A stretch of 64,000 bases of DNA from Nereocystis luetkeana (lineage: Eukaryota > Sar > Phaeophyceae > Laminariales > Laminariaceae). A program made the position numbers and the translations under genes. Position 1 is the stretch's first letter. Every line of letters begins with the position of its first letter. The stretch lies in contig JARUPZ010000013.1 in NCBI GenBank assembly GCA_031213475.1, forward strand, positions 10,642,794-10,706,793. The letters run 5' to 3'. The notes under the pieces were generated by a model that was given only the letters and a program-made list of their open reading frames with translations, was not told the DNA's origin and made no database searches. Below are positions 12,809-63,705 of the stretch, piece by piece.

Positions 12809-15800
12809 GTAAGAGGTGACCGTGGTCGTTGGTGGGGGTGGTGGGGTTGGAGTTGTTGTGGCTATTGTGGTGATTGTTGGTGCCGTTGTTTGTGGCTGAG
12901 GTTGGCGTTGTTGGTGTTGTCGTTATTTGCTGTTATCGTTGCTGTTGTCGTGGTGGTTGTTGTTGTAATTGTTGTTGTCGTGGTTGTTGTTTCTGTTGTT
13001 GTCGATGTCGTCGTTCCCCCCTTAACCCACCGCCGCCATCTACCCCGCCGTCACAACACACAAGCCCGCACACTTCAGGAAGCGAAACGAATAGCCCTCC
13101 CCCCCCCCCTGCCCCTCCCTCCCCTCCCTCCCTCCCTCCCTCCCTGTTCCCTCCTTGGCGGCGCAGCTTTCGAGCGACAAGAGATGGAGGCATTACGCCA
13201 AAAAGTATCCGTGTGGTTCGGAGACGAAACGGCATCCGGTCTAGAAACCGCGCCTGAGCTGCGGGCGAGACTGAAACGACTTGCGCCGGAAGAGATCCCT
13301 TTCCTTCAGGTGAGAAGGAACGTTGCTGCGGCAGTATAATAGCTACAATTCAGGAAACCTGCTAAGAGTAACACGCTAGAAAGCTGGCGCTGGCTAAGCC
13401 TGGGGTTTCTTGTGTGACACATGCTACTTCGGGGGTGCGCCTTTGCAATTTTTCCGAGGCAGACGCCTCGCTTGAGGAGTTCTACACTAAGAGTAAGTCA
13501 TTAGTAAGTCACACAAAAGCTGGCCACCCTTAACCCGATGACAAACTCCGCTTCCTAGGCCTGGAAACAAAAACAAAAACAGAGCAACGAACTAGTGGGA
13601 AGTTCCTCAGCTGAGAAGCCCCATCAGTCAGAAATGTTTGCCTTGTGAGGCAAAAAAAGGGCTACCCCTGCTGTCGAACGCGTCATGTGGGAAAGGGTGT
13701 GTTGTACACTAACTTGAAACAATTTTTCAGTGTAATACGCCTTGGATTTTCCGGAGTTTGTTATCTCTCTGTCCATCTCAGCCCGCCTTTTCTTAGTACA
13801 CGCTTTCTTAGTGGGTGTCCCGTGCCGTCCTGTTCGACTGTAAACTTCACACGTCGGATAGATCACAATCTATCTGTCTACTATAGATCATCCAGATCCT
13901 AACTTGCCGTTATGATGTGCTGCCGTGCAGGATCTGTACAGTACAGATCCAACCCAGGAAACACGATCCAGATCATCTAGATCCTAACCTGCCGTTATGA
14001 TATATACAACTTCAACCCAGGAAACATATCCTAGATCACACAGGTTATACGGGTCCCGTGTTGCGAGCTAGATCATACAGATCATAGAGATTATACGTGT
14101 AGAAACATCTGCATCAAGAAATGGGAATCGATTACCTGTCCGAGGTATGTAGTGTTTGTACGAGCAAACGGCTGCCCGGCCCGACTTTTTTCGCACGGAA
14201 GTTCAGATGGTTGCTTCTGAGAATGTAGCATGTTGTTGCCTGTCGTCTTCCGACACGAGCGACGAGGTTGTGTGCGCATGTACTTCTAGTCGTGAGGCGT
14301 ATGTGAGATGCGGACGATTTGCGTCTGGTCAAGTGTAAACTTCGCCTGCTGTGCGCCAAACTAACTTGAGACAGGTGCGTGCGTGCGTGCGCACATGAGT
14401 TGTCTGATTCTATACCCACTCCACCCCAAGATGGGGGCCCCAAGAACGTACAGATGTTTCGGCGTTGCCTCTTGGATGCCCGGCTAACCCCGCACCCCGT
14501 AAGAGCCACAGATGTCGGTTGACGTCTCTCTTGTCCCTTGTCGGGACAGCCCCCGCGGGGATCCCCACACGAAAACTAGTGTATTTTGTCTCAAGAGGCT
14601 CTGACGGGTAAAAGCTAGACGGAGATGTCGGTTGACGGCACATTCTTGTCCCTCAACGGGAGAGCCGTGATGGACCTCCCCACACTAAAACTAATACATC
14701 AAGTCTTAAGAGACTGAGACGGGTCAGGACCAATAATAGACCGCCAGCCGACAGCTGCTACTGTAGTTTATGTACTTCGTAGTTTTTTTTTTGTTTTCTC
14801 TGCTGACCCTCTCCCCTCACGTCGCGCTCCATCTCGAAAGGGGTGTGTGATGAATGGTCAACTGACTGAAGCAAGTAACAAATTAGTACACCCCCCCCCC
14901 CCCCCCTCCGTCGTGCCATTCGCCCGACACCCCACACAACACCCCACGGCGCTTCGCGCTTGGTGCAAGCAATGTCTACCCGGTCGGGGAAAATCCGACG
15001 TGCTCCGTCCCGGCACTGTAGGGATGCGAGGGTCTACGGTCATAGCACTACGGCCATGCATGATACTAAGTACACCCCCCCCCCCCTTTTTTTTGCGGTC
15101 GCCCATGGCTGGTTGTCGAGTTAGATCATTTGTGCGAGGTGAAAAAACTTTTCCGTACAAGGAAATTGATCGTATCACGTAGTGTTCAAGGGAAGGCACC
15201 CAAGAGGCAGTTACATAGTACCCCCATTGCTGTCTCAGGAAGTGCCTACACCGGAAATTAAATTTACTCATTGAAGCTGTCATCCATATGCAAGTCCGCC
15301 CCACAAGCGGTTGTTAGTAGGATGCAGCTCACCCTTCATGCGACTCGCCGGACACCTCACGGCGCTTCGCGCTTGGTGCAAGCAATGTCTGCCTGGCCGG
15401 TGAAAACCTGACATGCTCCGTCTCGGCATTGCAAAGATGCGAGGGTCTATGGTCATACGACTACGGCCATGCATGATATCGAATACATCTCTCCTATCGA
15501 GTACACTCCCCCCCTCATCGTCATTGTCTGACTGTTTTTCCGGCGCTTCGACTGTTGTGGGGAAACGTGATGACGTCGCCTCTGTTGTAGGTTTTCAACA
15601 TGTTCCGGAAGGCCGGTCCGTACCAGGAGGCCGTCGAGAATGTGGTGCTGTCTCCACGCCTTGCTCATGTCGCCGCGCAGCTCCTTGGTTGTGAACGGTA
15701 AGCGGAGGTGGCGTTCTTTCCTGCATGTAGACTCTCGTGGGTGATCGAGGCAAGTCGACCGTTTCGTCTGGTCGCGGGCTGATGCAGGTGTCAAGAGCCG

Positions 15801-21698: not shown

Positions 21699-22207
21699 CG
21701 ACCTATACAGGGTTTGTTGTTGTACGTTTTTTGTTTTTTCGGTGTTTTGCCTTTTTTTGGTGGTGTGTCCGTGGTTTGGTAACGCCCGCCGCCGCCGGCG
21801 ACGGTGTCGGTGGGCAAGCTGCGAAGCACTTTTGTTGCGGTTGTTGTTGTTGCTGTTGCAGATCGTGATCCGCCGAATAGAATGGTGGTACCTGGTGTAC
21901 GATCGGATTCTGATCGGTTTTGGCAGAAAGCAGAGCAATCGTATTTTATAGTGAATCGGCCTGCTCGAATTTTGAGGTGGAACGGAACGAGCGAAAAGCG
22001 AGCCCCTGTCTTTTCCCCACGCGGCTATGAATAACATCACAAGTGAGGGGGGCGATTTAACCGGTTAAGAAAACATTTGTGAATAAGGCGCAAGACGATC
22101 GCCAAGTACGATTCGATGTCAACGTCGATTGAACCGTACGAATGAAAAAATCGGATGGAATCGGCAAAAAAAAAACCCAATGAATCGGCTCTGATTCGCC
22201 GCCCTGT

Positions 22208-22313
22208 TAACCCTTTTAGAACTGCAGTCTCGTTTTGGGGACAATTGGGGACAAATTACTTGGAATTTGAGTGCCTTGTCCCCAAAACGGGACTGGAGTT
22301 CTAAAGGGGTTAA
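22208..22313. mobile_element. Hairpin MITE A with a small internal duplication
   Basis: TTAACCCTTTTAGAACTGCA on the left and GGAGTTCTAAAGGGGTTAA on the right, with TTAA at both ends. The centre repeats 'ttggggacaa' twice. Confidence 0.85.
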
Positions 22314-22689
22314 ACGGAGAAATGCCAAGTATAGCCACCCCTCTCCCCCAAGACGAACGAAGGGAGACAGTCACTCTCGCTTGCGAGTAGCGACCCCTGC
22401 TACGGCATTACGAGGGTATTACTGTAGGTTTTCAGTGGCTGCACGTTTTGAGCGCGAAAGTTTCTGACAGCCCCCAAGGTTGAATCGAGTGAGAGAGACC
22501 ATTCTCGCTACGTGACACCGCCAAGTTTTTTTCGGCTACTATGTTTGGCGAGTTAATAAGCTGGGCACTAAACACGATGGACCAAAGACAAAAAAACGAA
22601 AACTTCACCTCGTATCAATTACTGCATATCGGTCGATTGCCCGAGAGGAAAGGCGGACGGTGGCCGGGTCAGGAACTTTTGAAAAGTAA

Positions 22690-22860
22690 CGGGTCGGGCC
22701 GGGCCGGGCCGGGCCGGGCAGGGCCGGGCCGGGCCGGGTCGGGTCGGGTCGGGTCGGGTCAGGTCAGGAGGTTTTCAAACTCTCACGGGTCGGGGTCGGG
22801 TCACTCTTTTACTCGACTAGACCCGACTCCACGCGACCCGCGAGGTTGGACCCGACCCGT
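22690..22860. repeat. GGGCC / GGGTC simple arrays
   Basis: A gggcc pentamer run becomes gggtc, then 'caggaggttttcaaac' and more gggtcg words. A related inverted segment lies at 27,840-27,950 in the last DYNC2I2 intron. Confidence 0.8.
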
Positions 22861-23395: not shown

Positions 23396-23635
23396 GTGGA
23401 AACCGAATGGAGATGGATAAATTCATAAATTCGGGCGTAGCAATTGCTGTACAATGTTTTGTCTACTTTCCCTACACTTCAGACTTTTAGAGTGCCCCTG
23501 ATAGCTTTTCTTTCCGGTTCCAGTTCTTGCGAGCGGTTTCTACATTTTATCAATCTGCGGTGTTACCGGTACGTCCGCACTCAAATCTGCGGTATTGCAT
23601 ATCCCTTAATGAAACGGGAATAATCTTCACGGCCG

Positions 23636-23880
23636 TACTCGATAGGAGAGATAGACTCGATATCATGCATGGCAGTAGTCTTGTGACCATAAGGCCCTCG
23701 CATCCCTACAATGCCGGGACGGAGCATGTCGGGTTTTCACCGACCAGGCAGACATTGCTTGCACCAAGCGCGAGGCGCCAGGATGGTAAGGGGGGGGGTG
23801 TACTCGATAGGAGAGATGTACTCGATCTCATGCATGGCCGTAGTCGTATGACCATAGACCCTCGCATCCCCTATTGACCT
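23636..23880 (-). mobile_element. Two head-to-tail poly(C)-ended elements (type C)
   Basis: Read on the - strand, two copies of the 3' portion follow each other. The junction is a G run at 23,790-23,798 followed by 'tgtactcgataggagagatg', the normal 3' end of the family. Each carries the 'catgcatggc' and 'tagggatgcgaggg'-type words. Confidence 0.75.
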
Positions 23881-24483: not shown

Positions 24484-24673
24484 GTGCGGGGTACTCATGC
24501 CATGCATGGCCGTTTTGTATGACCATAGACCCTCCCATCCCTACAATGCCGGGACGGAGCACGTCGGGTTTTTACCGACCAGGCAGACATTGCTTGCACC
24601 AAGCGGGAAGCGCCGTGAGGTGTCCGGTGAGTCGCATGGAGGGTGCGCTGCAGCCTACTAGGGGGGGGGGGTC
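24484..24673 (-). mobile_element. Poly(C)-ended element (type C), bounded by G runs
   Basis: The - strand runs from 'tagtaggctgcagcgcaccc' through 'ggcgcttcccgcttggtg' to 'catgcatggcatgagtaccc'. A 12-base G run on the + strand (24,661-24,672) lies at the 5' side of the element. Confidence 0.75.
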
Positions 24674-24725
24674 TCTAAATTGGCACTAGTGCAGCACAAG
24701 ACACTTACTATAGGAATGCTCCACA

Positions 24726-29600: not shown

Positions 29601-32600
29601 CCGATAATTATCAATAGCTGTAATCCCTGGCCAACTAGGAACTAGTCGCCGACTTATAGCCAGCCAACTCACAGCCCCTAAGGGATACCTACACAACGCG
29701 CGGGTACATCGTTTAACATCGCACCAATGAATATCACGTACAGTGTTTCTGGAGTGGAGCTTCTGAGAGGCTTCAAACCCGCAGCTCAATGCAACGCAAC
29801 GCAATAGGATAGCTCCTCACCACTGCCGCGAAGACCAACGGTCTCGCCCTGCTCCACTTGACGTCCATGATGTTCGAGTTGGACGGCTCAAACGTGAGCA
29901 CCGCTCTAAACGGGGCGTTGGAGGGGGATGGGGGGGGTGGCGGGAGTGGGGGTTGGGGGGGGCGGAGGGGGGTCGGAGAGCGAGGAGGGGGAAGAGAGGG
30001 GGTACTCATTTGTTGCTTGCCTTGGTCATTTGACCATTGATCACGCATCCCTTTCGAGACGAAGCACCGTTCCTACTCAGAGACACGTCCAACAATTGGG
30101 CGCTCAGTACGTCGTTTGGATACATACATGTATATACAAGGCGCTTCGCACCGCAGGCGGCCTACACCGCCCGCTACGCTCGCTCAGGAAGGAAAAGTTC
30201 ATCAAATTATGCGAAGCGGACAGAGGCCCATGCCTGAATATAGTTTTTTTTAAGGTTATTGTAGTTGGAAACTGGCGTCTTGAAAATACCAAGAGTCCCG
30301 TCGCCATGCTTCAGGTAAAAACAGCTCGGACGCCACATACGCTTCGCGTCGCGGGCGGTCATACCCCAGGTGGGCTAATCCTTTTCTTCATTTGGTATAT
30401 GCTTGCTGTATGTTCTTTTCTTCTTTTGATATGCTGCATGTACGGAAGAGAAAGCACAGCACGGCATAGCAGCACCGCAAAAACAACGAAAATGAAACCG
30501 ACAAAAATTGGAAAGAAACAAAAATCCCCGTCCCCTCATGTTATGATTTTCTTCTTGATTGGAACACATTGCACCGGTCAAAAAACAAAAATCGAACAGC
30601 AGAGCTTCTCTCTCAGCCTCGTACGCCGCCCGCCCCTCTCGCGACCACGTCGCCACCGATTCGATCTGGGTAAAGCTTTCCTCACTCTCTGCCACAGTGA
30701 GCCCTGTCGCCCGCCTCGCGTGAAGCCCGGTGCTCACCGTGGCGGTCGTTCGCCAGCTCGATAATGTTGGTGCTCAGACTGCGTAGCTCTCTCTGTGAAC
30801 TTCAGCTTGGTCGAAAAAATAAGCACCGCTTGAATGTTATCTTGCAATCCCGAACAACCCTTACGGACTCGTACACACTCTATCCAAAATCACAAATGGA
30901 GACCAGACAGAGCCCATTCATGCATCCCTCGTGTCTCGAGGCACACGCAACGCCTAGTCACGAAAGCGGCGACCACTCCTTGCAACCCCCCCTCTACACA
31001 CCAGCATCCGCTTACACCCGCGACGGCGCCGAGCTCTCCCGCGGTGCCGTGCTCCGAGTATGCGCACGCACACGAAACGAAATAGGATACAAGGAAAAAA
31101 TAACCGAAATTGCCAAGAGAAATGGAAAAATCGAAGAACCGCTGGAATGGTCCGGCAAGTAATAAAAGGAGGCGGTTTCGAAGTGGGAGCTCTGAGAGGC
31201 CAGGGATGTACCAACCGAGCACGCTCAGAGAGTGAGATATCTGTAATTAGTTATATACATACATATTTTTTGGGGGGTACTCAAGTCATGTACGGCCGTA
31301 GGGATGTACTGTACCTAGCGAGTGAGATATCTGTAATTAGTTATATACATACATGTTTTGGGGGGGGTACTCAAGTCATGTACGGCCGTAGGGATGTACT
31401 GTACCTAACGGTCGACCTCCCACAAAACCTCAACATCGACCAAACATGAAAGCGTCAAGAAGCGTCAAGCAATCCCATGGCCGAGGTATACACCAATTAG
31501 TATTGCCAAACCCAATGTTCAAAACAAGTATTAATATGAATATCAGCGGTAAGGCTTTGCCTTACTGGGTAGTTAGTGTAGTCATTGCCCTTAAGGAGCC
31601 CCGTCAGCCATAAATTCTCAGCCCCGAAAAAGGTACAGTACCCCTGTTTTGGCACGCGTCTGACTAGGCTTGGCAAGAACATCGCGCGGCGCGTTGCTGG
31701 TAGTAATGGTGGTAGTAGTAGTAGTGGTGGGGGGAGGTGGTGGTGGTGAGGGTGGGGGTGTGGTTGGTGTTGTTGGCGTTTGGTGTTGTTAGTGTTGTTG
31801 TTGTTGTTGTTGTTGCTGTTGTTGTTGTTGGTGGTGGTGGTGGTGGTGAGGGTGACGGAAGTGGTCTGTCTGCGTACCCGACCCCTTCCAGCAACAGCCA
31901 CTCATCACATACCGCACCTGCTTTGTAGCGTGTTGTACAACCTGGCAGACCCGTCCGCCCCGCTGGTCAGGAGTAGCGCCCTGCGGATTCACACGCAGGG
32001 TACACCCCCGATCAGTGCAATAGAAAACACCGCCCTCCCCCCGATAAAGATAAAAAGCATGGTAATATAAATAGCAATAGCAATAGCGACAACATTAACA
32101 ATAGCAAAACCAATAGCAATAGCAACAGCAATAGGTATAACAATATCAATCGAAATGACATTACCAATAACAAATAGCAATACCTACAAAAAAGCTACAA
32201 CAGCAGTAGCAATAGCACTGCGAGTTTCTAACTTACGTGGCGGAAAAAAAAATGGTATTGTACGTACGCCTTTCGAGATCTCCGAAGCCTAAAAACCACG
32301 ACCGGCCACAGTAGTGCACTCCCCGAAGCGAAATAAATCAGGACTGGTGAATTTCTTGTTTCGAACTTAACCCCTTTAGCACCGCAGTCCCGTTTTGGGG
32401 ACAAACTACTTGAAATTTGAGTGGTTTGTCCCCGAAACGGGACTGCGGTTCTAAAAGGGTTAAAGCTTCCAACGCAAAGTACCAAGGTGACGACGGTGAC
32501 CAAGTTTCTGCGGCTCGAGTTCCTATATAGCGACAGCTATACTACCGGTATGTTTTACACTGGGTAGCCGGCTCTCAGTTGAGATGCTTAGGCACCGTTG

Positions 32601-35600
32601 GCACCACGACAGTACATAGTTGGTTGGCGAGGTAAGCCAACTACAGTAACTGGTTAAGTGCAAAACAATTATCACTAAAAAGCACACGTCGAGCGACAAA
32701 CGCACCGGCCAGATACAAAAGAGACTCGTCAGCCCGAAATGTATCAAAAAGGTACTCAAAATTTACCCTATCGTAGCACGCGTCAGCCAGAAAGGCAGAA
32801 AAAGGTACTTAAAAATAACCCTGTCGTAGCACGCGCCAGCCAGAAAGGCAGAAAAAGGCACTTAAGAGTACCCCTATCGTAACACGCGTTGGTCAGAAAT
32901 GCAAAAAAAGGTACTCGAAAGTACCCCTATCGTAGCACGCGTCAGCCAGAAACGCATAAAAAGGTACTCAAAATTACCGCTACTATAGCAAGTGCCAGCC
33001 AAAAAGGCCATAAAAGGGGTACTGGAAAGTTCCCCTATCGTAGGGCGCGTCAGTCAGCAAGGCAGAAAAAGGTACCCACTACAGAAAAGGCACCCAGTAG
33101 TTAGCGCTGCGTACGCCTTTACAGCCACCGCGCGCGCTCTCCCTTGCCTGTGAAACGGCGAACAGTCGATGGAGTGCACAGGCCCGTGGTGTTTCTCCAT
33201 GCGGAACACGCCGGGCGACGGGTAGAGCAAGGAAGATGCTAAACGCGACCGGAACACCGTCGGCAAGTTGACCTGAACAAAGAACATCCGGGAGGGAAAG
33301 TAAAGAGAGGGCGGGTGGGGTGAAGGCGGGTGTTGGTACTTCGATGACGAGGGGGTGTACTCGATATCATGCATGGCCGTAGTCGTATGACCATAGACCC
33401 TCGCATCCCTACAATTCGGGGGCGGAGCACGTCGGGTTTTCACCGACCAGGCAGGCATCGCTAGCACCAGCGGGGGGGGGGGTGTACTCGATAGGAGAGA
33501 TGTACTCGATTTCATGCATGGCCGTAGTCGTGTGACCATAGACCCTCGCATCCCTACAATGCCGGGACGGAGCATGTCGGTTTTTCACCGACCAGGCAGA
33601 CATTGCTTGCCCCAAGCGCGAAGCGCCGTGAGGGGGGGGGGGGTGTACTCATATCATGCATTGGCGTAGTCGTATGGCCATAGACCCTCGCACCCCTACA
33701 ATACCGGGACGGAGCACGTCGGGTTTCCACCGACCAGGCAGGCATTGCTTGCACCCAAGGGGGGTGAGGGGGGCGGCTAGTCAAAGGGGTCAAACCGCAG
33801 TCTCCTACGTCGAATGCTTAGCTTATTATACTATTTTTAGTACAGAAAGACGGTATGTCACGGGGTCAACCCGCGACCTCCTGGCATACACTCTTATCTC
33901 ACTGGTTTTAGTGTAGGAGGGCGGTCAGTCAAGCGGTCAAACCGCGGTCTCCTAACATTTGGACCGTCAAGGCTAAACCATTAGTTGGCTGGCGAACTAA
34001 CCGAACTAACTAACTTATAAAAAAAATACACGTCGAGCGACAAACACGCCAGCCAGAGGCATAGACGCAAAGTTACCAAAAATTACCGCATGCAACTAAC
34101 TGTAATACCCTCTACTGTAGCCAAGTAATGACTAGTCGGTGACTTATAGCCATGGTCGGCCAACTATCAGCCCCGCCTAATAAACACCATCGTCTAAGTC
34201 GGCAGAGATTTTATGAATAACAGTATGATCTCCGCCCCTCGATCGGGCTTCGCCCCGGCATTATCGACCTCTTTGGCTTACTTGCCTCCTCTGCTTATAC
34301 GTTGAATCAACGGACAGCCCTACCTATGACATGGCATCGTTTAAGTCGACAGAGCTTTGCTGATAACAGTCTTACCTCCGCCCCTCGATCAGATCTCGCG
34401 AACTTTTCAACCTCTTTGACCACCTGCCTCCTCTGCTTGGCAGGGACCCGCGACAGCATCTCATCCGCCTCGGACGACCATCGCATACTCTTGCCCTCGT
34501 CCCCACCCCCCTTAAGGCCCACAAGTCGCGGCAGCGCAACAGGTGCAGGACCAGGCAGCAGTTAGCAGTGTTTACGACTTGACCTACCCGCATTCCCGGT
34601 TATTTTCTCAAGCGGTCGTTTTTTTTTTCCTCTTGTTTTTTCCATCCCATCTAACTCGAAGTATAATCTCTGCACAATCACTCCAGCTCCCTCTCTTTCA
34701 GAAAATCAAGCATTTTCCAAGCATTCTGTTGGTGGCGAGCGAAAATCTATTACGGCCCTCCAGCAGTGTTTACGACTTGGCGCAGCTTCGGCAACATGGT
34801 TGATAGCCCGCACTAACCCTTCATTATATATTTCATTCCGGGATTTTTCCCAGGCTTGTTTCATCTTCCATTTCGAGAATTTCCCAGGCTCATTATATAC
34901 ACCTTCATTCCGAGGATTTTTCTCCATTGGATGAGGCGTTTTCTAAGGTGGTCGGGGATAGGGTTCCGATTAGAGGTAGGGTCTACAAGCCAAGGCGTGT
35001 ATGCACATAGTTGGCACCAATTTAGACGAAAACATTAGCAACGTCAAGTAAGCAAATTTATTATTGGACGGTCCTTACATTCCCGTCCACAGTGGTATCC
35101 GCAGTACTTACAGTAGTAGTATGGCTATTTTTAGGCGCCTTTCCGGGGCGCGTCGTTGCTATCCCATGGGATACCCGCGGGAGTACCGTCCCACGGAATC
35201 CCCATGGGACACACATGGACCGCCACAAACGTTCCATGGGAGATCCATGGCAGACCTATGGGATACCCATGGGAAACTCCTGAGAGACCCATGGGAGACC
35301 CATGGGAGACCCATGGGAGACCCATGACGGGAGACCCATGATGGGAGACTCGTGATGGAATGATGGAAGACCCATGATGGGATGATAGGGGACCCATGGG
35401 AGACCCATGGGAGACCCATGGGAGACCGATGGGTGACCCATGGGTGGCCTTTGGGCTGACCCATTGGGTGACCAATGGGCGATCCACGAGCCGGCACTAG
35501 AATCAAGCAGAAATTGGAAAACGTTGCCAGCCGCGGGGGGGGAGGCATACCCAGGCTGAACGGGGGGCCGGGAAGAGGTAAGCATGACACGGATAGCGTT

Positions 35601-41600: not shown

Positions 41601-44600
41601 CTTCAAAACTCGTTCGACTCTAAACCCAAGTATGGTTGTTAGTGTGTCCCTCTTTTTCCAACTCTCGCTGCTTCGAAAAAACTTCCATTTCTTCGAGTAA
41701 TTCCAACTACATAGGTCTGCATCCCCCCCTATATAAATAGGTTGAGTTGGCGTCGGCTGGCGACGACGTTGTAAAACACGCCTCCAACTGCATGAGCTAG
41801 ACAGCCGGACCACTATCTTTTTTCTTTTTTGACGGTCACCACGGCTGGTGGCCGAGCTAGGTCATTTGTGCGGGGTGGAGAACCTTAACTGCGCACAAGG
41901 AGAATTGCCGTATCACGTACTCGTAGTGTGTATATGGCAAGGCACCCACGAGGCAGTTACATAGTATACCCATTACTGTCTCTGGAAGTGGCCAGACCAC
42001 AAAACAAATCAATTCATTCGAATCTGTCGTCGATCCCAAGTCCGCCTCACGAGAAGTCCTTGGTAGGATGCAGCCACCCTTATAATGCGACTCATACAAC
42101 ATCTCACGGCGCTTCGCGCTTGGTGTTTGCAATACTTTGCCTGGTCAGTGAAAACCCGACGTGCTCCATCCTGGCATTGTAGCGATGCGAATGTCTATGG
42201 TCATACGGCTAGGGCCATGCATGGCATGAGTACACCTCCCCTAAAGGTGGACGCAGTTTCCTTAAAACCCTCTACTTTAAAAAAAATAACTCAATCCAAT
42301 TCCAAGCATACTGAGGTATGTTCTAAGCGTGGGTGAAATTTCACATATTCAGTGAACCGGGATCTGCCCCAAACCATGCCCGACATTCCACAACCACTTG
42401 CCCGCATGCATCAGTAGAGCAAGTTTCAATCCAAACTTTGCCGGACACTCCACAACTCTTGTCCGCATGCACGCACCTGCTGTGGTCGAGGACGATGTCT
42501 GGCGCGTGCTCTCCCTCGTCGGAAAAGCCTCGCCGGAAGATGTTCCAGGTGGCAAGAGCTCCAGGGGCTTCGCACCAACCAGCGATATCGTTTCTGCCAA
42601 AAACAAATAGTAACAAACAAGCACCGAATGAAAGGGTTTGACAGTTACGTAGTAACGGTAGAGTTTGACATACACCACCCTGCCCTGGAAAAGTAAAGTT
42701 TTGTTTTATGTTCTTCATGTATATATCCAACACCTTCCTTGCTTTTCTGAGAGGAGGGGTGACTTTTTTTCGTATCCCCCTTATCGTATTCGTATTTCTC
42801 CTGCTCCCTTGCTATATAGTCAGTCGTACGGGTAGCTCAAATCTGGGGTCGCATAGCAGGGTCTTCTCCCCACCCGGACTACGGCACGCGCCTTGCATTA
42901 TTGCTGCGAGAAGGGTTTAGCACTTTCAGCCCTCGTCGACTTGCGTCTAAGCGTGCATCAGATGTACGTTTTGAATTGGCGGTGGCGAAGCGGGCCGCCA
43001 TCCCCAGCAGCGACAACCTCAAGCTTACGTAGGGGTGACAAGTTTAAGGGCCAGGAGAGCCAATGCAGTACTTTTCATCGACCCCTCGGGCTGCGGCAAC
43101 GGTCTCAGCTATGGTTGGCCTTTCCCCGTGCGTTGTCACCCTGGTAGAGGTATGCGGGCGGGCGGACGGGTTGCCCGTGTTGGTGTTTGTGTTTGTGTTT
43201 GTGTTGGTGTTGGTGTTGGGTATGGTGTTGGTGTTGGTGTTGTTGTTGGTGGTAATGTTGGTGTTGGTGTTGGTGTTGGTGGTAATGTTGGTTTTGGTGT
43301 TGGTGTTGGCGTTGGTGTTGTTGTTGTTGTTGGTGTTGGTGTTGTTGTTGGTGTTGATGTTGGTATTGGTGTTAATGCCGGTGTTGGTGTTGGTGTTGTG
43401 TTGGTGTGGGCGTCAATGTTGGTGTTGGTTTTGGTGCTGGTGCTGGTGTTGGTGTTGGTGTTGGTGTTGGAGTTGGAGTTGGTGTTGGCGTTGGCGTTGG
43501 TGTTAGTGGTAATGTTGGTGTTGGTGATGGTGATGGTGTTGCTGTTGCTGTTGGTGTTGGTGTTGGTGTTGGTGTTGGTGTTGGTGTTTGTGTTGGTGTT
43601 GGTGTTGGGTATGGTGTTGGTGTTGGTGTTGTTGTTGGTGGTAATGTTGGTGTTGGTGTTGGTGTTGGTGGTAATGTTGGTTTTGGTGTTGGTGATGGCG
43701 TTGGTGTTGTTGTTGTTGGTGTTGATGTTGGTATTGGTGTTAATGCCGGTGTTGGTGTTGGTGTTGTGTTGGTGTGGGCGTCAATGTTGGTGTTGGTTTT
43801 GGTGCTGGTGTTGGTGTTGGTGTTGGTGTTGGACTTGGAGTTGGTGTTGGCGTTGGCGTTGGTGTTGGTGGTAACGTTGGTGTTGGTGATGGTGTTGCTG
43901 TTGCTGTTGGTGTTGGTGTTGGTGTTGGTGTTGGTGTTGGTGTTGGTGTTGGTGTTGGTGTTAGTATTGGTGTTGGAGTTGGAGTTGGTGTTGGCGTTGG
44001 CGTTGGTGTTGGTGGTAATGTTGGTGTTGGTGATGGTGATGGTGTTGCTGTTGCTGTTGGTGTTGGTGCTGGTGTTGGTGTTGGAGTTGGTGTTGGTGTT
44101 GGTGTTAGTGTTGGTGCTGGTGTTGGGGTTAATGTTGGTGTTGGTGTTGGTATTGGTGTTAATGCCGGTGTTGGTGTTGGTGTTGGTGTTGTGTTGGTGT
44201 TGTGTTGGTGTGGGTGTCAATGTTGGTGTTGGTGTTGGTAGTGGTGTTGGTAATGGTAGTGGTGTTGGTGCTGGTAGGGATGTTGGTGTCAGTGCTGGTC
44301 TTGGTGTTTGCGTTGATGTTGGTGGTGGCGGCAGCAGATTTGGACGATACTCCCCGGTCAAACCCGTTACCCACCTGCCGAAAGAGGCGACGACCACTGA
44401 TCCCGTAGGGCTCCAGTCCACGCCCGTGGCCTGAAGCATCTGCTGCGAAGAAAGCGAGGTGCAGTGGCGGGGGCCCGCGAAACAATGGGGGGTAAAATGA
44501 ATGCCCTGGTATCAAAACTGCCCCCGGATGGCTTAGCGGCGTATGCCTGGTACTCTCTGATCTCAATGTGTCCTACTCACAAAGCAGGTTTCCTCCTCGG

Positions 44601-56500: not shown

Positions 56501-59500
56501 GTGGGGAGAAAGGATGCAGGAACGTACAGTAGGAAGGGTGTAGAATTGTACTTTGGAAAAATTATAAAGTGCGGACAATGTGCGGCTACATCGCGGCGCC
56601 GCCGACTAAAGCTTGGATTGCTGCGCGAGCTTGCCGAGTTTGGTGTGCTCGGGCGTGCTTGACAAGCTTGGCGAAGTTGGCGAGCTTGAGTGAACTTGGC
56701 GAAGTTGACGTGCTTGAGTGAGATATATCTCTAGCCTCATACGTCACGGACTTTGTACCTTTCCCGCCATTTTTATGCTCATTTTTTTGCGAGGACGAAA
56801 ACCTTTTCAAGGGCCCATCTTCACGGGGAACGCTATATGGGAGTAAAATTTCAATTTCAATGAATTTTAATTCGATTTCGAAAAACAAACGTGTTTGTGT
56901 CCTATCGTGGAACAGCGTACTAGTTGTCAATCAAACAAGAATTCGGAAAAAACACACCGCGTCACACAACGCCCAGCCGACGAACAACGACGCGCGTAGA
57001 CGAGAGCGACGGTTTGCGCTGCCGCGTGCGCGCCGCCGCCAGCCTCTTTTTATTTTCGGTCGCGCAGGATAGGAAGCTAACACTCTCAGGGTGTCTTGGG
57101 TGGGCGGTGGGAGCCCTCAAGCACCACATGCGGAACAGCAGGGGTGATGCAGCCATCGAGGTCTCGAACGTATCCTCCATTTTTTTGCTCATTTGCTCGG
57201 TTTTTGCGATTGTTGGCCGATCGAGCAGGCCGCAAAATTGGGATTGCGGCCGCCATGATTACTTTTGAGGCGCTACCGCCGGGGTACGATGTGCTATGGT
57301 GTGTGGGCGTGGGCGCGGCTATTGATCCGGTCACCTCTCGTTGAGGTTCGCGTTTTATCGCCTCGATCGTGGTCGTCGAACGGCCTTGAATCGCCCCAGA
57401 CTCCACCGAGGGTGTTGACCCACCATGAACATGCTACGTCAAGTCCGAGGAACTCCCAAATTCCCAATTGGTATTCGAAAAATCACACGAAAAAATTCCC
57501 AAAAGACTTTTCGCTCTAATTCTATTTTTCGAATTTGCCTGCTTGGTCGTTTACTCTTCGGCCAATCAGATGCAAATTAAATTAGAAAAAAAAACAAAAA
57601 AATTAAATTGAAAAAAATAAGAATCCCCGTTAAGATGGGCCCTAAGCGACCTGATTAGTTCACCTCGAGGAGGTCGGAGTGGGGGAATATAGGGTGTGCG
57701 AGTGGGGGGGGGGGGGCACTGAGCCGTTCCAGCATTACTTATTATTACGTGTGATAAATGTCACTACCGTATCACACTAGGGTGATATGATAACACACCC
57801 CCTAGGACGAATTTCGGAGGAGATTTTCTCCGAAACATGCCTTAAGGGGTACACACAACAAAAATGGTCGTTTTGAAAAGCTCGAGAGGATACTCCCGTA
57901 GACGCGGCGCTCGGTGTCCACTCTCTCCCACTTGTCGAGAAAAGAAGCTGCGAAATTCGTTTGAGGGTGTGTGTTATCTTATCCCCCTAGGGTGACAGTG
58001 TTATACTGTAACAATGTGGGGCATGCCGGCCTGCTCTTGACTATCGGTGTGCTTGTTTTGTTTTGTTTTTCTCTTTCGCCTCTTGTTTTTGTTTTTCTGG
58101 CGTTCGTTTTACCACAGGACTCGATAAGCCTTCATGTGCCAGGCAGGACTCACCCGGTGGATGTCATGTACGCCAAGGAAGATCAAGTGAGTGCCAACGG
58201 TTCATGGAATGGGAGTGTTTGGGACAACGCATGTCTGAGCTGCCGTTCGATGGGAGCATCCTTTTCTTGATCCCCTGCTCTGCGAAATTTTGCGCTAGTC
58301 GTCGTCAGTGTCACATGCCGCCACAAATTATGTTGCCTCCCCCCTCCTCCCCAGTCCTTTACATGTACCCCCCCCCCTCCTCGTCGCTTCGCGCTTGGTG
58401 CGAGCAGTGTCTGCCTGGTCGGTGAAAACCCGACATGCTCCGTCCCGGCATTGTAGGGATGCGAGGGTCTACGGTCATACGACTACGGCCATGCATGATA
58501 TCGAGTACATCTCTCCTATCGAGTACACCCCCCCCCCCTCCACCTTCTCCGTCTCGAAAGGGATGCGTGGTCAATGGTCAAATAACCAGGCCAGCAACAA
58601 ATGAGTACGCCCCCCCCCCCCCTCTCTCCACCTTCCCTCCTATTAATAATCGGTTGCTCCGTCTGGAAAGGGATGCGTAGTCAATGGTCGAGTGACTGAG
58701 GTGAGCAACAAATGAGTACGCCCATCTCCTATCAATAGCCAATTTTGTTGTTTTTCTCGCGCTTTTGATGAAGGATCAGGTCCGACACCTCCTCCGCTTG
58801 TCGATGTCATGCTGAGGGCCCCTGGCTGACTACACGCACCACGAAACTATTACGGGGGACCATAATGAATACCTGGTAGGACCTATGGTATACGTAAAAG
58901 CCTATATATTTAATCATTTTTTACGAACAATATTTGGTCCTATAACTATGGTCCCCCGTAATATTGTATATATGGTGATCTCGTTCGGATTTCACGCTGG
59001 TAGAAAGCACTAAAAAAAAAAGCCCAACTTTTTCGTTCGGACGCAGAATCTTCGGCCTCTCGCTCGGAGCAATAAAATATCATCTGACTTAACCCATATT
59101 TTCAATGGAATCCTCGGCTTGACGAAGCTCAACAAATTCTCCGGCTCCACCCAAGTTTTCTATAGAATCTTCGGCCGGTATTTGTTTCGGCGGCCGCGCG
59201 GGTTTTAGGAACTCCTTTCGCTTGTCAAAATGGTGCGCGGAAGGCGTTTCTTGGATTCTTGGAATTGCCTTGTATACCCGCGGCATGGGTCGAAACTGTA
59301 CCTGGTATACTGTTATTGGGCGGTGACTTCGCTGGGCCTGACGGCTAGTTGTTAGTTGGGTGGTGAAGTGATCCAACTAGTTGTTAGTTGGCTGTTGCAG
59401 TAAGCCAACTAGGTATTAGTTGGGTGCCGGAGTAAGCCAACTGGTTGCTAGTTGGGTGGTCCAGTAAGCCAACCATCTGACTTTTTTTAGTCTTGATTTA

Positions 59501-62500
59501 GTAACGCACAGACATCGGGCCCACAGACGCGCCAGTCAGATTCAAAGACGTAGAACCCCGCAGATTACTGGACACAACTATGTAACTGACATACCTAGCT
59601 AACTAAATCACTAGTTGGCAAACTTCTCACAGCTGTTGTAAGCTATGTTTAATACCTAGCCAACTAGTTATAACTAATCGAATAACGATTAATAGTTGGA
59701 GTTTGGAGTTGGCGACATATAGATAGCCAAATCAAAGCCTTAGTGCCCAATCCAACCCTACAAATATCGTTGTGTAACCATATGGAGATAAATGCTTTTG
59801 GGCACCATCTGACTATTTGTAGTATGTAATACTATCGCCTATATGCCGTAAAGGTAGCCTGAACAGTAGCATCGTCCGCCCCACCACCGCCACCTCTGCC
59901 ACTGCCGCTGTTGTCGCGTTTACAGGACGACTACCTAGACGCGTGTCTGGTGACGTGCTTGCAGATTCACGAGGAGGCCGAGGGAGACGGGGATGTGTTG
60001 GTTTTCCTCCCCGGTCAGGATGATATCGAGGCGTTGTCGCAGCTGTTGAGGGAGAATTTGGCCACGCTAAGAGCCGAAAAATCGAGGTGACGTTTTGTTT
60101 TTGTTTGTATCCCGAATTTTGGAAAAATAAAAGCTCTATTTCCAGTAGTATTTTTTATTTATTGTCAGGTAATACCAGGTCACTATGTTTCTTAGAAGGC
60201 GTTTTTTTTCACTTAGTGTTGGGGGGGATGTGTGTGGGAGGGGGTGTATTTTTTGTCACCGCTCGAAGGGTGAGGTGTTGGTTGTCGTTGGGCGGTAACC
60301 GTCGGACGGTAACGGTATTGGTTTTCACCATTGGATGGTATCGGTACTGGGGCCGTTGGATGGTAATGGTATTGGTTTCCGTTGGACGGTCACGGTGTCG
60401 GGTTACCGTTGGAGGGTAACGGTGTGGGTTTCCGTTCGAAGGTAACGGTATTGCTTACCGTTGATTCAAACGTTGAGGTGCAGGTTGTCGTTAGATGATC
60501 ACGGTATTGTTTTACCGTTGGATGGTAACGGTTATATTTCCGTTGGAAGGTAACTGTATTGCTTACCGTTGGTTCGAAGGTTGAGGTGTTGATTGTCGTT
60601 GAACGGTAACTATATTGGTTTTCCGTTGGATGGTAACGGTATTGATTCCTGGTGGAAGGTAATGGTATTTGCCACCTCTGGTTGTCATTGGGCGGTGACC
60701 GTTGGACGGTAGCGATATTGGTTTAGCGTTGGTTGGCGACGGTATTGGTTTCCGCTGGAAGGTAAACAGTATCGATTTTCGTTGCTTGTCGGTGGACGGT
60801 AACGGTATTGGTGCGCCGTGAGATGATAAATATATTGGTGTCCGTTGGGAGGTAACGGTATTGGTTACCGTTGATCGGGAAAGGGCGATATTCGTTGGCG
60901 CTGAACGGTATGCGTATACCTGGTCGATTTCTATTGGTCGGTTTTTGCTGATGCTCATGTTGTGGCTGTTGATATTATCACTTTTTTTTACTGCCGCTGT
61001 GGTTCGTGTGTTCGGACCGCCCGGATTCTGCCCGGCAACCTCAACGACTACACTATTTTTTTTGTGCACACATGCCGCTTTCGCCCAACATGAACACTGC
61101 GTCAGATAGCCATGGGTGCAGTTGTTTTCATGGTCTCTTCAATCGCCGTCATCAGGGTTGCTGTTTTTTCTCGCTGGTGTCGTCGCTGTTGTTTGCTTGT
61201 TTGCCTTAAAGCCTACCGTACGCACACCCATCTTCTTCTTTTTCCCTCCCCCTTCATTTTATTGGCTTCGCACTTCTTTTCTATCTCCTTCCTACGTAGT
61301 CGTAACTCAGAGCCGGGGTCACATGACAGGCTCTTCCCCCTCCTCCCTCCGGTCCACTACGGCTCTTGCCTTGGCAGGCACTTTTTATCGCGAGAAGACT
61401 TCGAAGCCCTTCCTTCCCTCGTCGGCTCGCATCGACTTACTGTAGATAGCACTAAACACGCACCCCATTTTGCCCCAATATTAATTCAGAGAGCTAGCGT
61501 CCGCAAGGGCGGACGCCGCGGCTGCGCGGGGCCGAGCGGAGGCCCACACATTGGGGGCAGCAGGCGGGGGTCTGAGGGGGGAGGAGGGAGAGGGGTTGTT
61601 GAGAGCGTCGATGGTGTGCCCGGTGTTCGCTGCCTTGCCCCAGGAGCAGCAGCTCGAAGCCTTCGAGCCCGCACCGGCAGGGACGCGAAAATTTGTCTTG
61701 GTGAGTTTTTTTTGTTTGTTAGTACCTGGTATGTATTTTTGTGTTTTTTTTGTCAATTTCGTGTGTTGGTATTTTTGTGATTTTGTGTTTCTGTGTTTTT
61801 GTTTTTTTTGTGTATTCCGCGTTTTGTTCATTTGAGTGTTGTTTTTCCGTATGTGCTCGTTGTTGTATGGATTTTTTTGGTTTTCGTTCAGTTTTTTCAG
61901 GTTTTTACTCAGTGTCGATTTTTTTTGTTCGCCTTTGTTTTTTGTTGTTGTTGTTGTTGCTTTTTTCAACTTTTGTTTTGTTTTGTTTTGTTTTTTGCAG
62001 CACTGAAGAAGCCATCACTATTATTTGGGTGGTATTTTTATCGTTATGCGGCAGAAAGCAACACGTTTTGTTTGTTTGTTCTTGCGTTGAGCTTTTTTGT
62101 TTTTCGACGTTGCGCTGCTGTGCGGTGTTGTTTTTTTTCAGGATACTGTCTGCTAACAAAAACTGTTTGATTAATTCATACCAGGTATGTATTAATCAAT
62201 TCAGACATTGTTTGTTTCACCCCGTACGCACCCATCACATTAAATATACATATCACCCCACCCTAACATGACTATTTCATTCAGGTCTTTAGTTTGTTTG
62301 TGGTCTACCAGCCGGACACACGACTGACTCCCTGCAGACCTGCAGACAGAAAGCGTAGTGCCTCGAGTCTCGACATCTGCGCCCTGCACCCATCTTCTCC
62401 TTTTTTTACGCGGGGCCATAGTAATGCATAGCAAAACATACGTGGTAGCTATCAAAACCCACGATGAACCCTAAAAACAGGTATCCCCCTACAACACTGC

Positions 62501-63705
62501 TATATGTTCACACACTATTCTTGGTTATCGGTACTACTATTCTGGTTTTCGAGTACGAGGAGGCGGTCTGTCGAAAGGAGTCAAACCGCGGTCTTCTACT
62601 ACGGCATATAAGCCATAGCGATACATAGTAATACATCGTACCGGTAGTACATAGTAATCAGAACCCACTATAGACCCTAAAAAGCAGGTACCTGGTATGT
62701 ATGTAACCCCTCACTGCTCTATGTTGGCACAACTTATTTGGTTCTCATTACTACTGGTATTTGATCGTTTGCTCACGCGTGATAGTATACCTCCTCTTTG
62801 TTTCTGTCCGTGATTTATCGATGACAGGCGACGAACATCGCCGAGACTTCAATCACCATCAACGGCATCCGGTACGTGGTGGACTCCGGGAAGGTCAAGG
62901 TGAGCTCCCCCCTTTCCCTTCCATTGCATTGCGTCATTTCCACATCCTTCGTATAACTCCTACCAGGTACTTCGTACCCTCTTATACCGGGTATACCGGT
63001 ACGTGTTTTGGTGCATATGCTTCTCACGCCCTTCGCACACTTGCTATTAATAACCTCCTGCTGCGCCCCCCCCCCCCCCCCCACACCCAAGAGGCAGTTA
63101 CATAATACTCCCACTGCTGTCTCTGGAAGTGGCTACACCGGAAATTAAATTAACTCATTGAAGCTGTCATCCATATGCAAGTCCGCCTCACAAGCGGTTC
63201 TTAGTAGGATGCAGCTCACCCTTCATGCGACTCGCCCCACACCTCACGGCGCTTGCTTCAAGCTTGGTGCAAGCAATGTCTGCCCGGTCGGTAAAACCCG
63301 ACATGCTCCGTTCCAGCATTGTAGGGATGCGAGGGTCTATGGTCATACGACTACGGCTATGCATGATATCGAGTACATCTCTCCTATCGAGTACCCCCCC
63401 CCCCCCCCCCGCCCCCCCCCCCCCCGCCCCCCGCCCTTTGCTCTATCAGCTCCCCATCTTTCTCTCTCAGCCCCCCCCCACCTTGCCCTACCCCCCTCCT
63501 CTTCCCCTCCTCCCCCCCCCCCCCCTAATTCCGTTCGTGTCGCTCACCGAATCGGTCGGTGGTTGCTTCGGTTCCAGGTCCGCTCTTACCAGCCCTCGAC
63601 GGGCATGGAGTTCTTGCGGTCTAGGGACGTGTCTAAGGCGCAGGCGACGCAGCGGGCGGGGAGGGCGGGGCGAGAGGCCCCTGGCGTGTGCTACCGCCTT
63701 TTCCG
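49796..63705 (+). CDS. DHX33: DEAH-box RNA helicase, DHX33 type, 3' end beyond the window
   Basis: Eleven exons (49,796-50,579; 51,109-51,506; 52,455-52,539; 53,739-53,871; 54,735-54,828; 55,802-55,933; 58,118-58,186; 59,926-60,086; about 61,577-61,700; 62,828-62,899; 63,578-63,705) encode about 720 residues. The motifs appear in order: GETGSGKS (I), TQPRRVAA (Ia), DEAH (II), MSATLD (III), [12 protein letters not shown] (IV), [11 protein letters not shown] (V) and QRAGRAGR (VI). DHX33 is the best family match ([36 protein letters not shown]), over DHX8, DHX15 or DHX40. In animals it acts in nucleolar rRNA synthesis and translation. The N-terminus is about 300 residues longer than in human and is basic, with [13 protein letters not shown] and a poly-His run. 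The helicase-associated C-terminal domains lie outside. Confidence 0.92.
50580..51108 (+). other. DHX33 intron 1
   Basis: The frame stays open past the donor for 15 codons and several frames are open later, but phase and the helicase alignment favour removal of this stretch. No repeat family is recognised in it. Confidence 0.6.
51109..51506 (+). CDS. DHX33: DHX33 exon 2 (entry to the helicase core)
   Basis: A disordered Gly/Ala-rich part leads to [19 protein letters not shown] and RAVKGHQ, the 'LPIxxxxxxLLxAIxxHQ' segment that precedes motif I in DEAH helicases. The acceptor is 'aaacag', the donor 'catcag|gtgagg'. Phase 1 in, 0 out. Confidence 0.88.
51590..51760. repeat. Short tandem repeat of about 45 bp in DHX33 intron 2
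   Basis: Units contain 'gaagcagtgacttga' and 'ttaaagtatagagg'. About three to four diverged units. Confidence 0.6.
51838..52420. repeat. GCATGCGCTTG minisatellite in DHX33 intron 2
   Basis: Units of about 30-35 bp built on 'cggcatgcgcttgattgtc' and 'gcttttgcttggc'. The 237-codon frame on the - strand and other frames are repeat artefacts (SKAHAxTIKRMP). Confidence 0.9.
52455..52539 (+). CDS. DHX33: DHX33 exon 3 (Walker A, motif I)
   Basis: Encodes [20 protein letters not shown] and YEAGITGG. The donor 'ggg|gtgccg' at 52,540 gives phase 1 and joins to give [14 protein letters not shown]. The stronger 'gtgagt' at 52,571 would break the frame. Confidence 0.9.
52604..52874. mobile_element. GATC-rich element (family E), copy 8
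   Basis: 'ggacatatccgatcag' on the left and 'atctatctgtccgatgcgtg' on the right, core 'atatcatagcggcaaac'. Confidence 0.75.
53020..53238. mobile_element. GATC-rich element (family E), copy 9
   Basis: 'catcggacagatcagataga' on the left and 'gatctatccgtccaacacgt' on the right, core 'atatcataacggcagggtag'. Confidence 0.8.
53739..53871 (+). CDS. DHX33: DHX33 exon 4 (motif Ia)
   Basis: Encodes [20 protein letters not shown], then [19 protein letters not shown], nearly identical to DHX33 '[15 protein letters not shown]...VGYTVRFDD'. Acceptor 'atggag', donor 'agag|gtgaga'. Phase 1 in, 2 out. Confidence 0.95.
54099..54206. mobile_element. MITE B
   Basis: 'attacgggggaccatattaa' and 'tttactatggacccccgcaa' are inverted ends; inner arms are present. 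Confidence 0.82.
54360..54675. mobile_element. GATC-rich element (family E), degraded copy 10
   Basis: 'cacgtgtcggacagatggtg' on the left and 'ccatctgacgtgtctgtcg' on the right. The centre holds many 'gcagatca' words but not the usual core. Confidence 0.55.
54735..54828 (+). CDS. DHX33: DHX33 exon 5 (ends inside the DEAH box)
   Basis: Encodes [18 protein letters not shown] and [12 protein letters not shown]. The last codons are Asp-Glu of motif II. Acceptor 'ccgcag', donor 'gacgag|gtgggc'. Phase 2 in, 0 out. Confidence 0.95.
55103..55206. mobile_element. Hairpin MITE A, diverged copy
   Basis: 'aaccgcagtcccgttttggg' faces 'ccccaaaatgggactgcagt'. The right end is 'aaaagggttaag'. The left end has lost its TTAA. 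Confidence 0.75.
55507..55763. mobile_element. GATC-rich element (family E), copy 11
   Basis: 'acgccggacagatcgtgtac' on the left, core 'catcccataacgccaggtta' and 'tgacctgtctgatc' near the right end. Confidence 0.75.
55802..55933 (+). CDS. DHX33: DHX33 exon 6 (completes DEAH, motif III)
   Basis: Begins [18 protein letters not shown], then [20 protein letters not shown]. Acceptor 'tggcag', donor 'agg|gtgggt', phase 0 on both sides. Confidence 0.95.
55935..56520. repeat. GGGTGG/TGGTGTGG low-complexity tract in DHX33 intron 6
   Basis: G/T-rich and then G/A-rich short-unit sequence. The 284-codon - strand frame (His/Pro/Thr-rich) is an artefact of this composition. Confidence 0.8.
56521..57750. 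other. DHX33 intron 6, mostly unique
   Basis: A short 'aacttggcgaagttg' repeat at 56,630-56,720, and otherwise no exon or repeat that I can support. Frames at 56,860-57,410 on both strands are unassigned. Confidence 0.45.
57755..58005. mobile_element. Family F MITE, best copy (about 250 bp)
   Basis: 'atcacactagggtgatatga' plus 'taacacacccc' on the left is mirrored by 'gggtgtgtgttatcttatcc' plus 'ctagggtgacagtg' on the right. The centre contains 'acgaatttcggaggagattt' and 'acacacaacaaaaatggtcg'. Confidence 0.82.
58118..58186 (+). CDS. DHX33: DHX33 exon 7
   Basis: Encodes [20 protein letters not shown], then EDQ, matching DHX33 'VLYLEGRQHPIQVFYTKQPQ'. Acceptor 'ccacag', donor 'caa|gtgagt', phase 0 on both sides. 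Confidence 0.94.
58385..58720 (+). mobile_element. Poly(C)-ended elements in tandem: one type C, two type D
   Basis: 58,385-58,540 is a type C copy ending 'tcgagtacac' plus C run. 58,548-58,622 is type D ending 'aaatgagtacg' plus 14 C. 58,650-58,720 is a second type D ending 'aaatgagtacgccc'. All stand in the same direction. Confidence 0.8.
58849..58963. mobile_element. MITE B with a TACCTGGTA word inserted in the left arm
   Basis: 'attacgggggaccataatga', then 'atacctggtaggacc', and on the right 'tataactatggtcccccgta'. Confidence 0.83.
59345..59770. mobile_element. Family G repeat, longest copy
   Basis: Five 'ttagttgg' units on the left and inverted 'ccaact' words on the right flank a centre with 'cccacagacgcgccagtcag'. 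Confidence 0.6.
59926..60086 (+). CDS. DHX33: DHX33 exon 8 (motif IV)
   Basis: Encodes [20 protein letters not shown], then [20 protein letters not shown] and LRENLATL. It matches DHX33 'NDYLHAALVSVFQIHQEA...DILVFLTGQEEIEAM'. Acceptor 'ttacag', donor 'tcgag|gtgacg'. Phase 0 in, 2 out. Confidence 0.95.
60270..60900. repeat. GGTAACGGTATTGGTTTCCG minisatellite in DHX33 intron 8
   Basis: Units of about 45-50 bp alternate 'ccgttggacggtaacgg' and 'tattggtttccgttgg', about a dozen diverged copies. Confidence 0.88.
61300..61450 (+). repeat. Dispersed repeat family J
   Basis: 'aactcagagccggggtcaca', 'cttccccctcctccctccgg' and 'cgcatcgacttactg' in the family order. Confidence 0.5.
61577..61700 (+). 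CDS. DHX33: DHX33 exon 9
   Basis: Encodes [20 protein letters not shown] and [10 protein letters not shown], matching DHX33 'LVLPLYASLPYAQQLRVFQGAPKGYRKVII'. The acceptor is 'tctgag' at 61,576 or 'ttgag' at 61,603; both keep phase with exon 8. Donor 'ttg|gtgagt', phase 0. Confidence 0.9.
61701..62270. other. DHX33 intron 9, T-rich first part
   Basis: Poly(T)-rich with ttttgttt words. The 176-codon Phe/Val/Cys-rich frame here is a compositional artefact. Confidence 0.7.
62405..62760. mobile_element. Two degraded MITE B-like segments around a family I fragment
   Basis: 62,405-62,530 ('gcggggccatagtaatgcat') and 62,625-62,760 ('acatagtaatcagaacccac') keep parts of the MITE B order, including 'aaccctaaaaa/ccctaaaaagcaggta'. 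Between them 'tcaaaccgcggtcttcta' is a family I piece. Confidence 0.4.
62828..62899 (+). CDS. DHX33: DHX33 exon 10 (motif V)
   Basis: Encodes [20 protein letters not shown] and GKVK. Acceptor 'gacag', donor 'aag|gtgagc', phase 0 on both sides. Confidence 0.97.
63082..63420 (+). mobile_element. Poly(C)-ended element (type C), long copy, C runs at both ends
   Basis: A C run at 63,066-63,082 precedes 'acccaagaggcagttacata'. The element continues through 'tcattgaagctgtcatccat' and 'tagggatgcgagggtctatg' and ends 'cgagtac' plus a C tract of more than 25 with a few G. It lies 160 bases before the next exon. Confidence 0.85.
63578..63705 (+). CDS. DHX33: DHX33 exon 11 (motif VI)
   Basis: Encodes [20 protein letters not shown], then [20 protein letters not shown] and LF. 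Acceptor 'ttccag', probable donor 'ccg|gtggga'. Exons for the winged-helix, ratchet and OB-fold parts must lie past the window. Confidence 0.95.

Follow-up and report, generated by a model that had tools for sequence, protein, structure and literature searches.

The window, by which we mean the whole 64,000-nucleotide stretch of Nereocystis luetkeana DNA analyzed here, contains on both strands, at the places originally reported, short elements whose 3' ends are of the GAGTAC type and run into tracts of C. Comparison with the SINE/LINE library identifies 17 copies in which the 3' end is intact, comprising 13 of a short element, designated type A, and 4 of a second body, designated type D (Table 1); the predicted family of at least twelve GAGTAC-C segments is real. 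The longest copy is not the one at 15,091–15,520, as had been proposed, but a near full-length copy that ends at 42,243 and starts at 41,734 in the alignment, or at about 41,730 as judged by eye. A run of six or more C is present at the 3' end in 11 of the 17 copies and is short or absent in 6, for example, those at 24,491, 42,243, 58,717, and 23,635. The tandem pair of ends near 31.3 kb may represent either a tail that has diverged or a third family. No Rfam match at the gathering score and no tRNA was found in the window, ten long reading frames in it had no Pfam match at E ≤ 0.01, and the 22-base end motif had no exact match in viral contigs. The window also includes strong local tandem-repeat arrays at 43,177–44,330 and 60,263–60,910 and copies of a ~110-bp inverted-repeat (MITE-like) element (CTATTACGGGGG...CCTATTAACTATGG...) at 18,464, 19,456, 20,783, 28,883, 45,920, 54,093, 58,846, and 63,843.

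Table 1. Elements with GAGTAC-type ends in the window and the C runs that adjoin them
Feature	Positions	Strand	Junctions and remarks
LINE 3' stub (type D)	14,826–14,887	+	C16 directly after
SINE-like copy, 5'-truncated	14,939–15,074	+	C16 of type D stub 32 nt upstream; C12 downstream
SINE-like copy, 5'-truncated	15,087–15,505	+	Begins directly after C12 of preceding copy; tail ACTC7
SINE-like copy	23,635–23,779	-	Begins 10 nt past C9 tail of 23,799–23,870 copy; without 3' C run
SINE-like copy, strongly truncated	23,799–23,870	-	Without 5' C run (counter-example)
SINE-like copy	24,491–24,660	-	5' junction at C11 (24,661–24,671)
LINE 3' stub (type D)	30,004–30,129	-	Without 5' C run
Two tandem diverged ends, ACTTGAGTAC then C (~88-nt pair)	31,272–31,372 (ends 31,272 and 31,360)	-	No SINE/LINE library match
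SINE-like copy, third of chain	33,356–33,469	-	Begins by C11 tail of upstream copy
SINE-like copy, second of chain	33,483–33,633	-	Begins by C12 tail of upstream copy
SINE-like copy, first of chain	33,644–33,755	-	CCCCCCTCACCCCCC upstream
SINE-like copy	37,099–37,202	+	C11 upstream (37,084–37,094); C15 downstream
SINE-like copy, 84% to consensus	39,366–39,481	-	Tail C15GC11; without 5' C run
SINE-like copy, near full-length, 80% to consensus	41,730–42,243 (alignment from 41,734)	+	C7 just upstream (41,723–41,729)
SINE-like copy	58,382–58,527	+	C10TCC upstream; C11TCC downstream
LINE 3' stub (type D)	58,547–58,606	+	Adjoins C11 tail of preceding copy; own tail C13
LINE 3' stub (type D)	58,655–58,717	+	Possible target-site duplication CTCCTAT(T/C)AATA; 3' end GCCC only
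SINE-like copy	63,084–63,394	+	Between C17 (63,066–63,082) and C17GC14GC6

The elements are abundant in the 465-Mb genome searched (1,987 contigs). GAGTACNC7 occurs 18,443 times (9,255 + 9,188) as compared with 151 times (85 + 66) for the reversed control, so these ends are not due to chance. The type A 20-mer ACGACTACGGCCATGCATGA has 11,049 exact matches (5,494 + 5,555) and the type D end AGCAACAAATGAGTACNC6 has 2,145 (1,100 + 1,045), with none for the control in either case. The window, loci L009–L029, and a further 40 loci together contain 78 GAGTA(C)-C6 ends, of which 73 have a match in the SINE/LINE library; the remaining five comprise the tandem pair at 31.3 kb and single ends in L019, L040, and L056. 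The window lies in contig C13 and L029 in C18, every other locus read is from contig C1, and most of the sampled loci were chosen because the tail is present.

Long copies of type A share a common 5' end (CCTATTTTATATAGG...) and are ~520–535 nucleotides in length, and the shorter ones begin at many different truncation points, which supports the earlier view that they are 5'-truncated retroposed copies. The truncation points seem to be clustered at SINE positions 372–380 and 463–468 and, in the LINE described below, at positions 4452–4459 (L009–L069). T runs of five or more end Pol III transcription, and such a run is present within 15 of 17 full-length type A copies. Because these runs argue against Pol III transcription, and because one full-length copy had no Rfam match at E ≤ 1, type A is termed SINE-like. 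The mark of a SINE in the strict sense, a head that originates from a tRNA, 7SL, 5S, or other Pol III gene, was not found in these comparisons; as a short, apparently non-coding element with a 3' end in common with a LINE, type A does correspond to what is called a SINE with a LINE tail. The possibility that it is the 3' untranslated region of a different LINE was dropped because full-length copies stop sharply upstream, and a DNA transposon or Helitron was set aside because the LINE partner and the target duplications fit retroposition better.

Type D had been regarded as a second, unrelated body with the same end. A profile built from the 3' ends of nine type A copies recovers 13 copies of that type in the window and, in addition, type D copies at 30,067 (minus strand, E = 2.6e-5) and 58,543 (E = 5.1e-5), so the two types have a 3' part in common, and the two families align over the last ~65–70 nucleotides. 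These matches, and a LINE reading frame that ends in the type D end, led us to abandon the idea of an unrelated body. In L029 this frame comprises 921 residues, matches RVT_1 (PF00078, E = 2.8e-28), and runs to a TGA stop inside TGAGTAC, after which come GC13TC11 and then a SINE-like copy; a piece upstream of it matches Exo_endo_phos (PF03372, E = 6.2e-13). In L018 a frame of the reverse-transcriptase C-terminal region runs toward the type D end, interrupted by stops and inserts, and the L029 copy is itself broken into several frames and carries an inserted ~110-bp repeat. Judged from its sequence, type D represents the 3'-terminal part of an autonomous LINE, which, with a predicted endonuclease and a predicted reverse transcriptase in one element (copy L029), has the makeup of an APE-type non-LTR retrotransposon. 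Compared with solved structures, the LINE matched 12 sequences, with 8c8j in the top row (E = 7.6e-19) and LINE-1 ORF2p chains among the best (E = 1.2e-18). Matches to the LINE protein number at least 149 genome-wide, from 148 scored among 3,030 first-look candidates. Equal-scoring matches occur in pairs of a large and a small contig (C5:239,979 and C572:19,914; C17:1,321,100 and C934:21,872) and are perhaps haplotype duplicates, which could provide allelic empty sites. The ~110-bp MITE-like element found in the window is also inserted within the LINE copies L029 and L018.

The original prediction had advised a search for a full-length partner with the same 3' end and had suggested that this end is the likely mobility signal. 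A partner with this end, the LINE encoding an endonuclease and a reverse transcriptase, was found, and the suggestion is supported. Little conserved RNA structure (5 pairs, -1.58 kcal/mol) is predicted for the common 3' end from an alignment of 25 rows, two of which are mis-set references without the last bases. Three of the four LINE stubs in the window begin almost exactly at the start of the SINE-LINE homology.

A feature absent from the first account of the window is a C run on the 5' side of the elements, which is present in 11 of the 17 copies, with a G run in 0 of 17. The 5' junctions of copies with intact 3' ends were counted over 265,320 bases, comprising the window and L009–L029, in which the random-position background is 1.76%. 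Six or more C adjoin the junction in 30 of 58 SINE copies and six or more G in 1. Among SINE copies with at least 90% identity, C is found in 22 of 31 and G in 0 of 31. The clearest test comes from truncated copies, in which the native 5' end is missing; for those of any age the corresponding counts are 13 and 1 of 34, and for LINE pieces they are 4 and 0 of 13. A further set of 37 copies was chosen only by the 3' tail (40 loci were fetched, of which two had no library match and one was cut by an edge; L031, L032, and L049 have common flanks) and gives 22 junctions with C and 0 with G, with C at 8 of 17 truncated SINE copies. Exact full-length heads number 510 genome-wide (254 + 256). C6 within 6 nucleotides upstream of the head gave 184 minus-strand matches as compared with 256 minus-strand heads, assuming one match per head as among the matches listed, and the plus-strand counts are inflated by overlaps. 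In contigs C1 and C2, 32 of 38 heads among the matches listed have C6 upstream, and G6 upstream of a full-length head occurs 0 times in the genome. The C counts as compared with the G counts place the run on the sense strand of the element, with one exception among the copies counted.

The C run is nevertheless a preferred rather than a strict feature of the target, as in a LINE that favors a simple repeat. Six or more C are absent from the 5' junction in 9 of the 31 young copies, two of which have C5 (examples of the nine are L015, L024, L026, and the window copy at 23,870), and from 28 of 58 SINE copies, 21 of the 34 truncated copies, and 9 of the 13 LINE pieces. Full-length copies have the run in 13 of 17 cases in the first set and 12 of 17 in the further set, which is weaker evidence because additional C may separate the duplication from the head (L048). 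Of the runs with at least nine C, 16 of 25 in the window lie against a copy, as do 61 of 114 over all 22 sequences, in which most loci were picked for the tail. The 53 of 114 runs (9 of 25 in the window) that abut no family copy are either free targets or the ends of unrecognizably short copies.

Target-site duplications, another check that had been recommended, were found in fewer than half of the copies, and most of these belong to the SINE-like element. Together with 5' truncation they are features of APE-type LINEs. Several copies have the arrangement flank-C(n)-X-element-C(m)-X, where X is 7–10 nucleotides. In L061, C10TGACCCACTC flanks the copy on both sides with equal C runs; the duplication is C(n)GCCTCGCAC in L009 and GTTGCCA in L048, and further cases are L064, L067, L069, L050, and L021. 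After exclusion of four loci whose flanks are themselves duplicated, duplications were scored with C runs shortened to three, and the expectation was taken from mismatched pairs. A score of at least 20 was obtained for 10 of 104 copies as compared with 1.87 expected, and of at least 24 for 7 as compared with 0.42. One of these seven pairs (window 33,469) is a match within family sequence and no duplication, and two of the ten (L051 and L028 7,693) are C/T-rich and less telling. Beyond the C run most copies have no duplication: the mean prefix match is 1.35 as compared with 0.87 for mismatched pairs and is zero in 17 of 34.

Unfilled paralogs cover three sites, a small sample. L048 and L051 contain full-length copies inserted in one repeat family, members of which, L013 and L022, keep an unbroken C9 and C11 at that place. 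In L047, GCGCCAC is followed by a truncated copy and then by C10TAGGCACC; at this place the unfilled L017 and L027 (CACTCCCCTAGG) have GCGTCACTCCCCTAGGCACC and GCGCCACTCCCCTAGGCACC. In L062 a copy is embedded in the C tail of an older one, which is found by itself in L031, L032, and L049 and has the same flank downstream, so the second insertion entered the tail of the first. These paralogs indicate that C runs, even short ones, serve as targets and that insertion can lengthen them, as from four to ten C at L047. The original prediction treated the C tract as the tail of the element and named pre-existing C runs used as targets as the finding that would speak against this. The duplications, some of which contain the C run, and the unfilled paralogs that hold it indicate that the run is in good part target sequence; the elements are able to lengthen it.

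The same sites bear on the possibility of an assembly artefact at homopolymers, which was raised at the outset, and on that of satellite or local duplication without retroposition. The recurring flank in L031, L032, and L049 and the tandem pair at 31.3 kb are what such processes could produce, but more than eleven thousand exact 20-mers in the genome, the variety of truncation points, the target-site duplications, the unfilled paralogs, and a coding LINE partner make this explanation, in our judgment, extremely improbable; the artefact proposal is not supported.

In the LINE-1/Alu system, an APE-type endonuclease directs target-primed insertion beside a homopolymer, the primer pairs with the tail, the target is duplicated, and copies are 5'-truncated. 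We consider it likely, on the strength of sequence comparisons, that the LINE and its SINE-like partner insert through their common 3' end by a similar target-primed reverse transcription into oligo(C), with C replacing A; the A tail and T-rich primer of the L1/Alu poly(A) system are not found here, tail and target both being C runs. The following steps are envisaged. (i) The LINE endonuclease would nick the G strand at the upstream border of a run of three or more C. (ii) The freed oligo(G) 3' end would pair with C of the GAGUAC(A/G)C end of the RNA and prime cDNA synthesis. (iii) A cut in the other (C) strand 7–10 nucleotides downstream would produce the duplication of the C run plus X, and incomplete cDNA would give the 5' truncations. 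(iv) The LINE protein would move the SINE-like RNA in trans via the common 3' end. (v) Short runs would be lengthened by slippage or by a C tail on the RNA. The scheme leaves over the extra C before the full-length head, the 9 of 31 young and 21 of 34 truncated copies without six C at the 5' junction, and the truncation hot spots.

Some of this remainder would be accommodated if the C tract were a true RNA tail, either templated or added post-transcriptionally like the poly(A) of L1, with insertion of low specificity and the 5' C derived from the tail or from template switching. The 3' run exceeds the unfilled site at L047 and the 5' copy at L069 (9 as compared with 5) and L054 (10 as compared with 3), extra C precedes the full-length head in L048, SINE ends are mostly GAGTACA followed by C (A at that position in 50 of 90 ends scored), and most truncated copies in the first set, as counted above, lack the 5' run. 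The further loci were picked for tails of seven or more C, however, which biases them to long 3' runs and weakens this support. Moreover, C9 and C11 were already present in unfilled paralogs, the L061 duplication has equal C runs on both sides, and truncated copies start at C runs in both sets far more often than the background of 1.8%. An RNA tail as the main source of the C tract thus appears unlikely to us, and target-primed insertion into oligo(C) is retained as the preferred reading.

Insertion of this kind would account for the head-to-tail arrangement of many copies. Of the 74 intact 3' ends in the 265 kb, 23 are no more than 60 nucleotides from another copy on the same strand and none is that close to a copy on the opposite strand; in the window 7 of 17 copies are chained, at 14.8–15.5, 23.6–23.9, 33.4–33.8, and 58.4–58.7 kb. 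Chains confined to one strand would also arise within a single insertion if the reverse transcriptase jumped from the 5' end of one RNA to the C-containing 3' end of another, and at L016 7,225 a LINE end is joined to a SINE-like copy without a C run, as template jumping would give. Set against this are the upstream copy of L062, which is solitary at three other loci, the chain at 33.4–33.8 kb, whose members differ in divergence (91.2, 97.4, and 93.0%), and the location of solo copies also at C runs (43 solo copies have five or more C upstream, as do 19 chained ones). Jumping between RNA templates may contribute to chains, as at L016, but as their general origin we regard it as improbable. We are inclined, by little more than an even judgment, to a broader view in which the A/T code of target-primed insertion has been swapped for C/G and each insertion, by duplicating its target, leaves two C-run landing pads, so that the chains feed themselves and the genome is seeded with poly(C).

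If this is true, the priming homopolymer in LINE/SINE insertion is not tied to A/T, and an APE-type LINE can prefer oligo(C). Oligo(C) sequence can form G-quadruplex or i-motif structures. The thousands of copies, with their unfilled paralogs, represent natural experiments on primer-tail pairing and target choice, and they bear on the origin of poly(C) runs.

A survey of the literature on poly(C)-tailed or poly(C)-targeted retroelements, RTE-X, and target specificity, in which poly(C) is not expressible as a search term, gave no (C)n end or target among the matches listed. The comparisons with published systems given here are based on parts of the papers cited. In Ectocarpus, RTEX-N1_Ec32 is described as the most abundant transposable element family, a non-autonomous element of ~600 bp with more than 6,000 copies and a 5' part of unknown origin that its authors hesitated to name a SINE (PMC12477816). 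Going by this description, RTEX-N1_Ec32 and the autonomous RTE-X LINEs RTEX-1_Ec32 and RTEX-2_Ec32 have a 3' end in common as does the pair in Nereocystis, whereas a C tail or C target is not described in the parts of the paper covered (PMC12477816). RTEX-1 of Saccharina was judged to be recently inserted (PMC4421812), and the two papers offer a lead that the LINE described here belongs to the RTE-X clade (PMC12477816 and PMC4421812). The green-algal SINEX and RTEX elements also have common SINE-LINE tails and short-repeat 3' ends; these are (A)n, (T)n, (ATT)n, (CTTT)n, (CA)n, (CAA)n, (CCAT)n, and the like, with no (C)n in the portions of the table covered (PMC3747384).

Preference for a simple-sequence target is shared with microsatellite-specific LINEs such as Togen, which inserts in (TG)n; those named are near NeSL or in the HERO clade and have a restriction-like endonuclease (PMC4640811), whereas the LINE here is of the predicted APE type and its target is a run of a single base. 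SART1 of the silkworm likewise inserts into a simple repeat, and the nicked bottom strand pairs with the 3' region of the RNA in the model given, but its target is the TTAGG repeat and its tail is poly(A); when poly(C) replaced the tail, it did not serve as a start site for reverse transcription (PMC7265360). L1 and Alu have no common 3' sequence apart from poly(A), as described in the sections of PMC3747384 covered, in contrast to the ~65–70 nucleotides common to the two families here. In the scheme of insertion LINE-1/Alu resembles the present system, with A/T as the homopolymer there and C/G here. The LINE and its SINE-like partner are probably relatives of a kind already described, and the C/G target is the new part.
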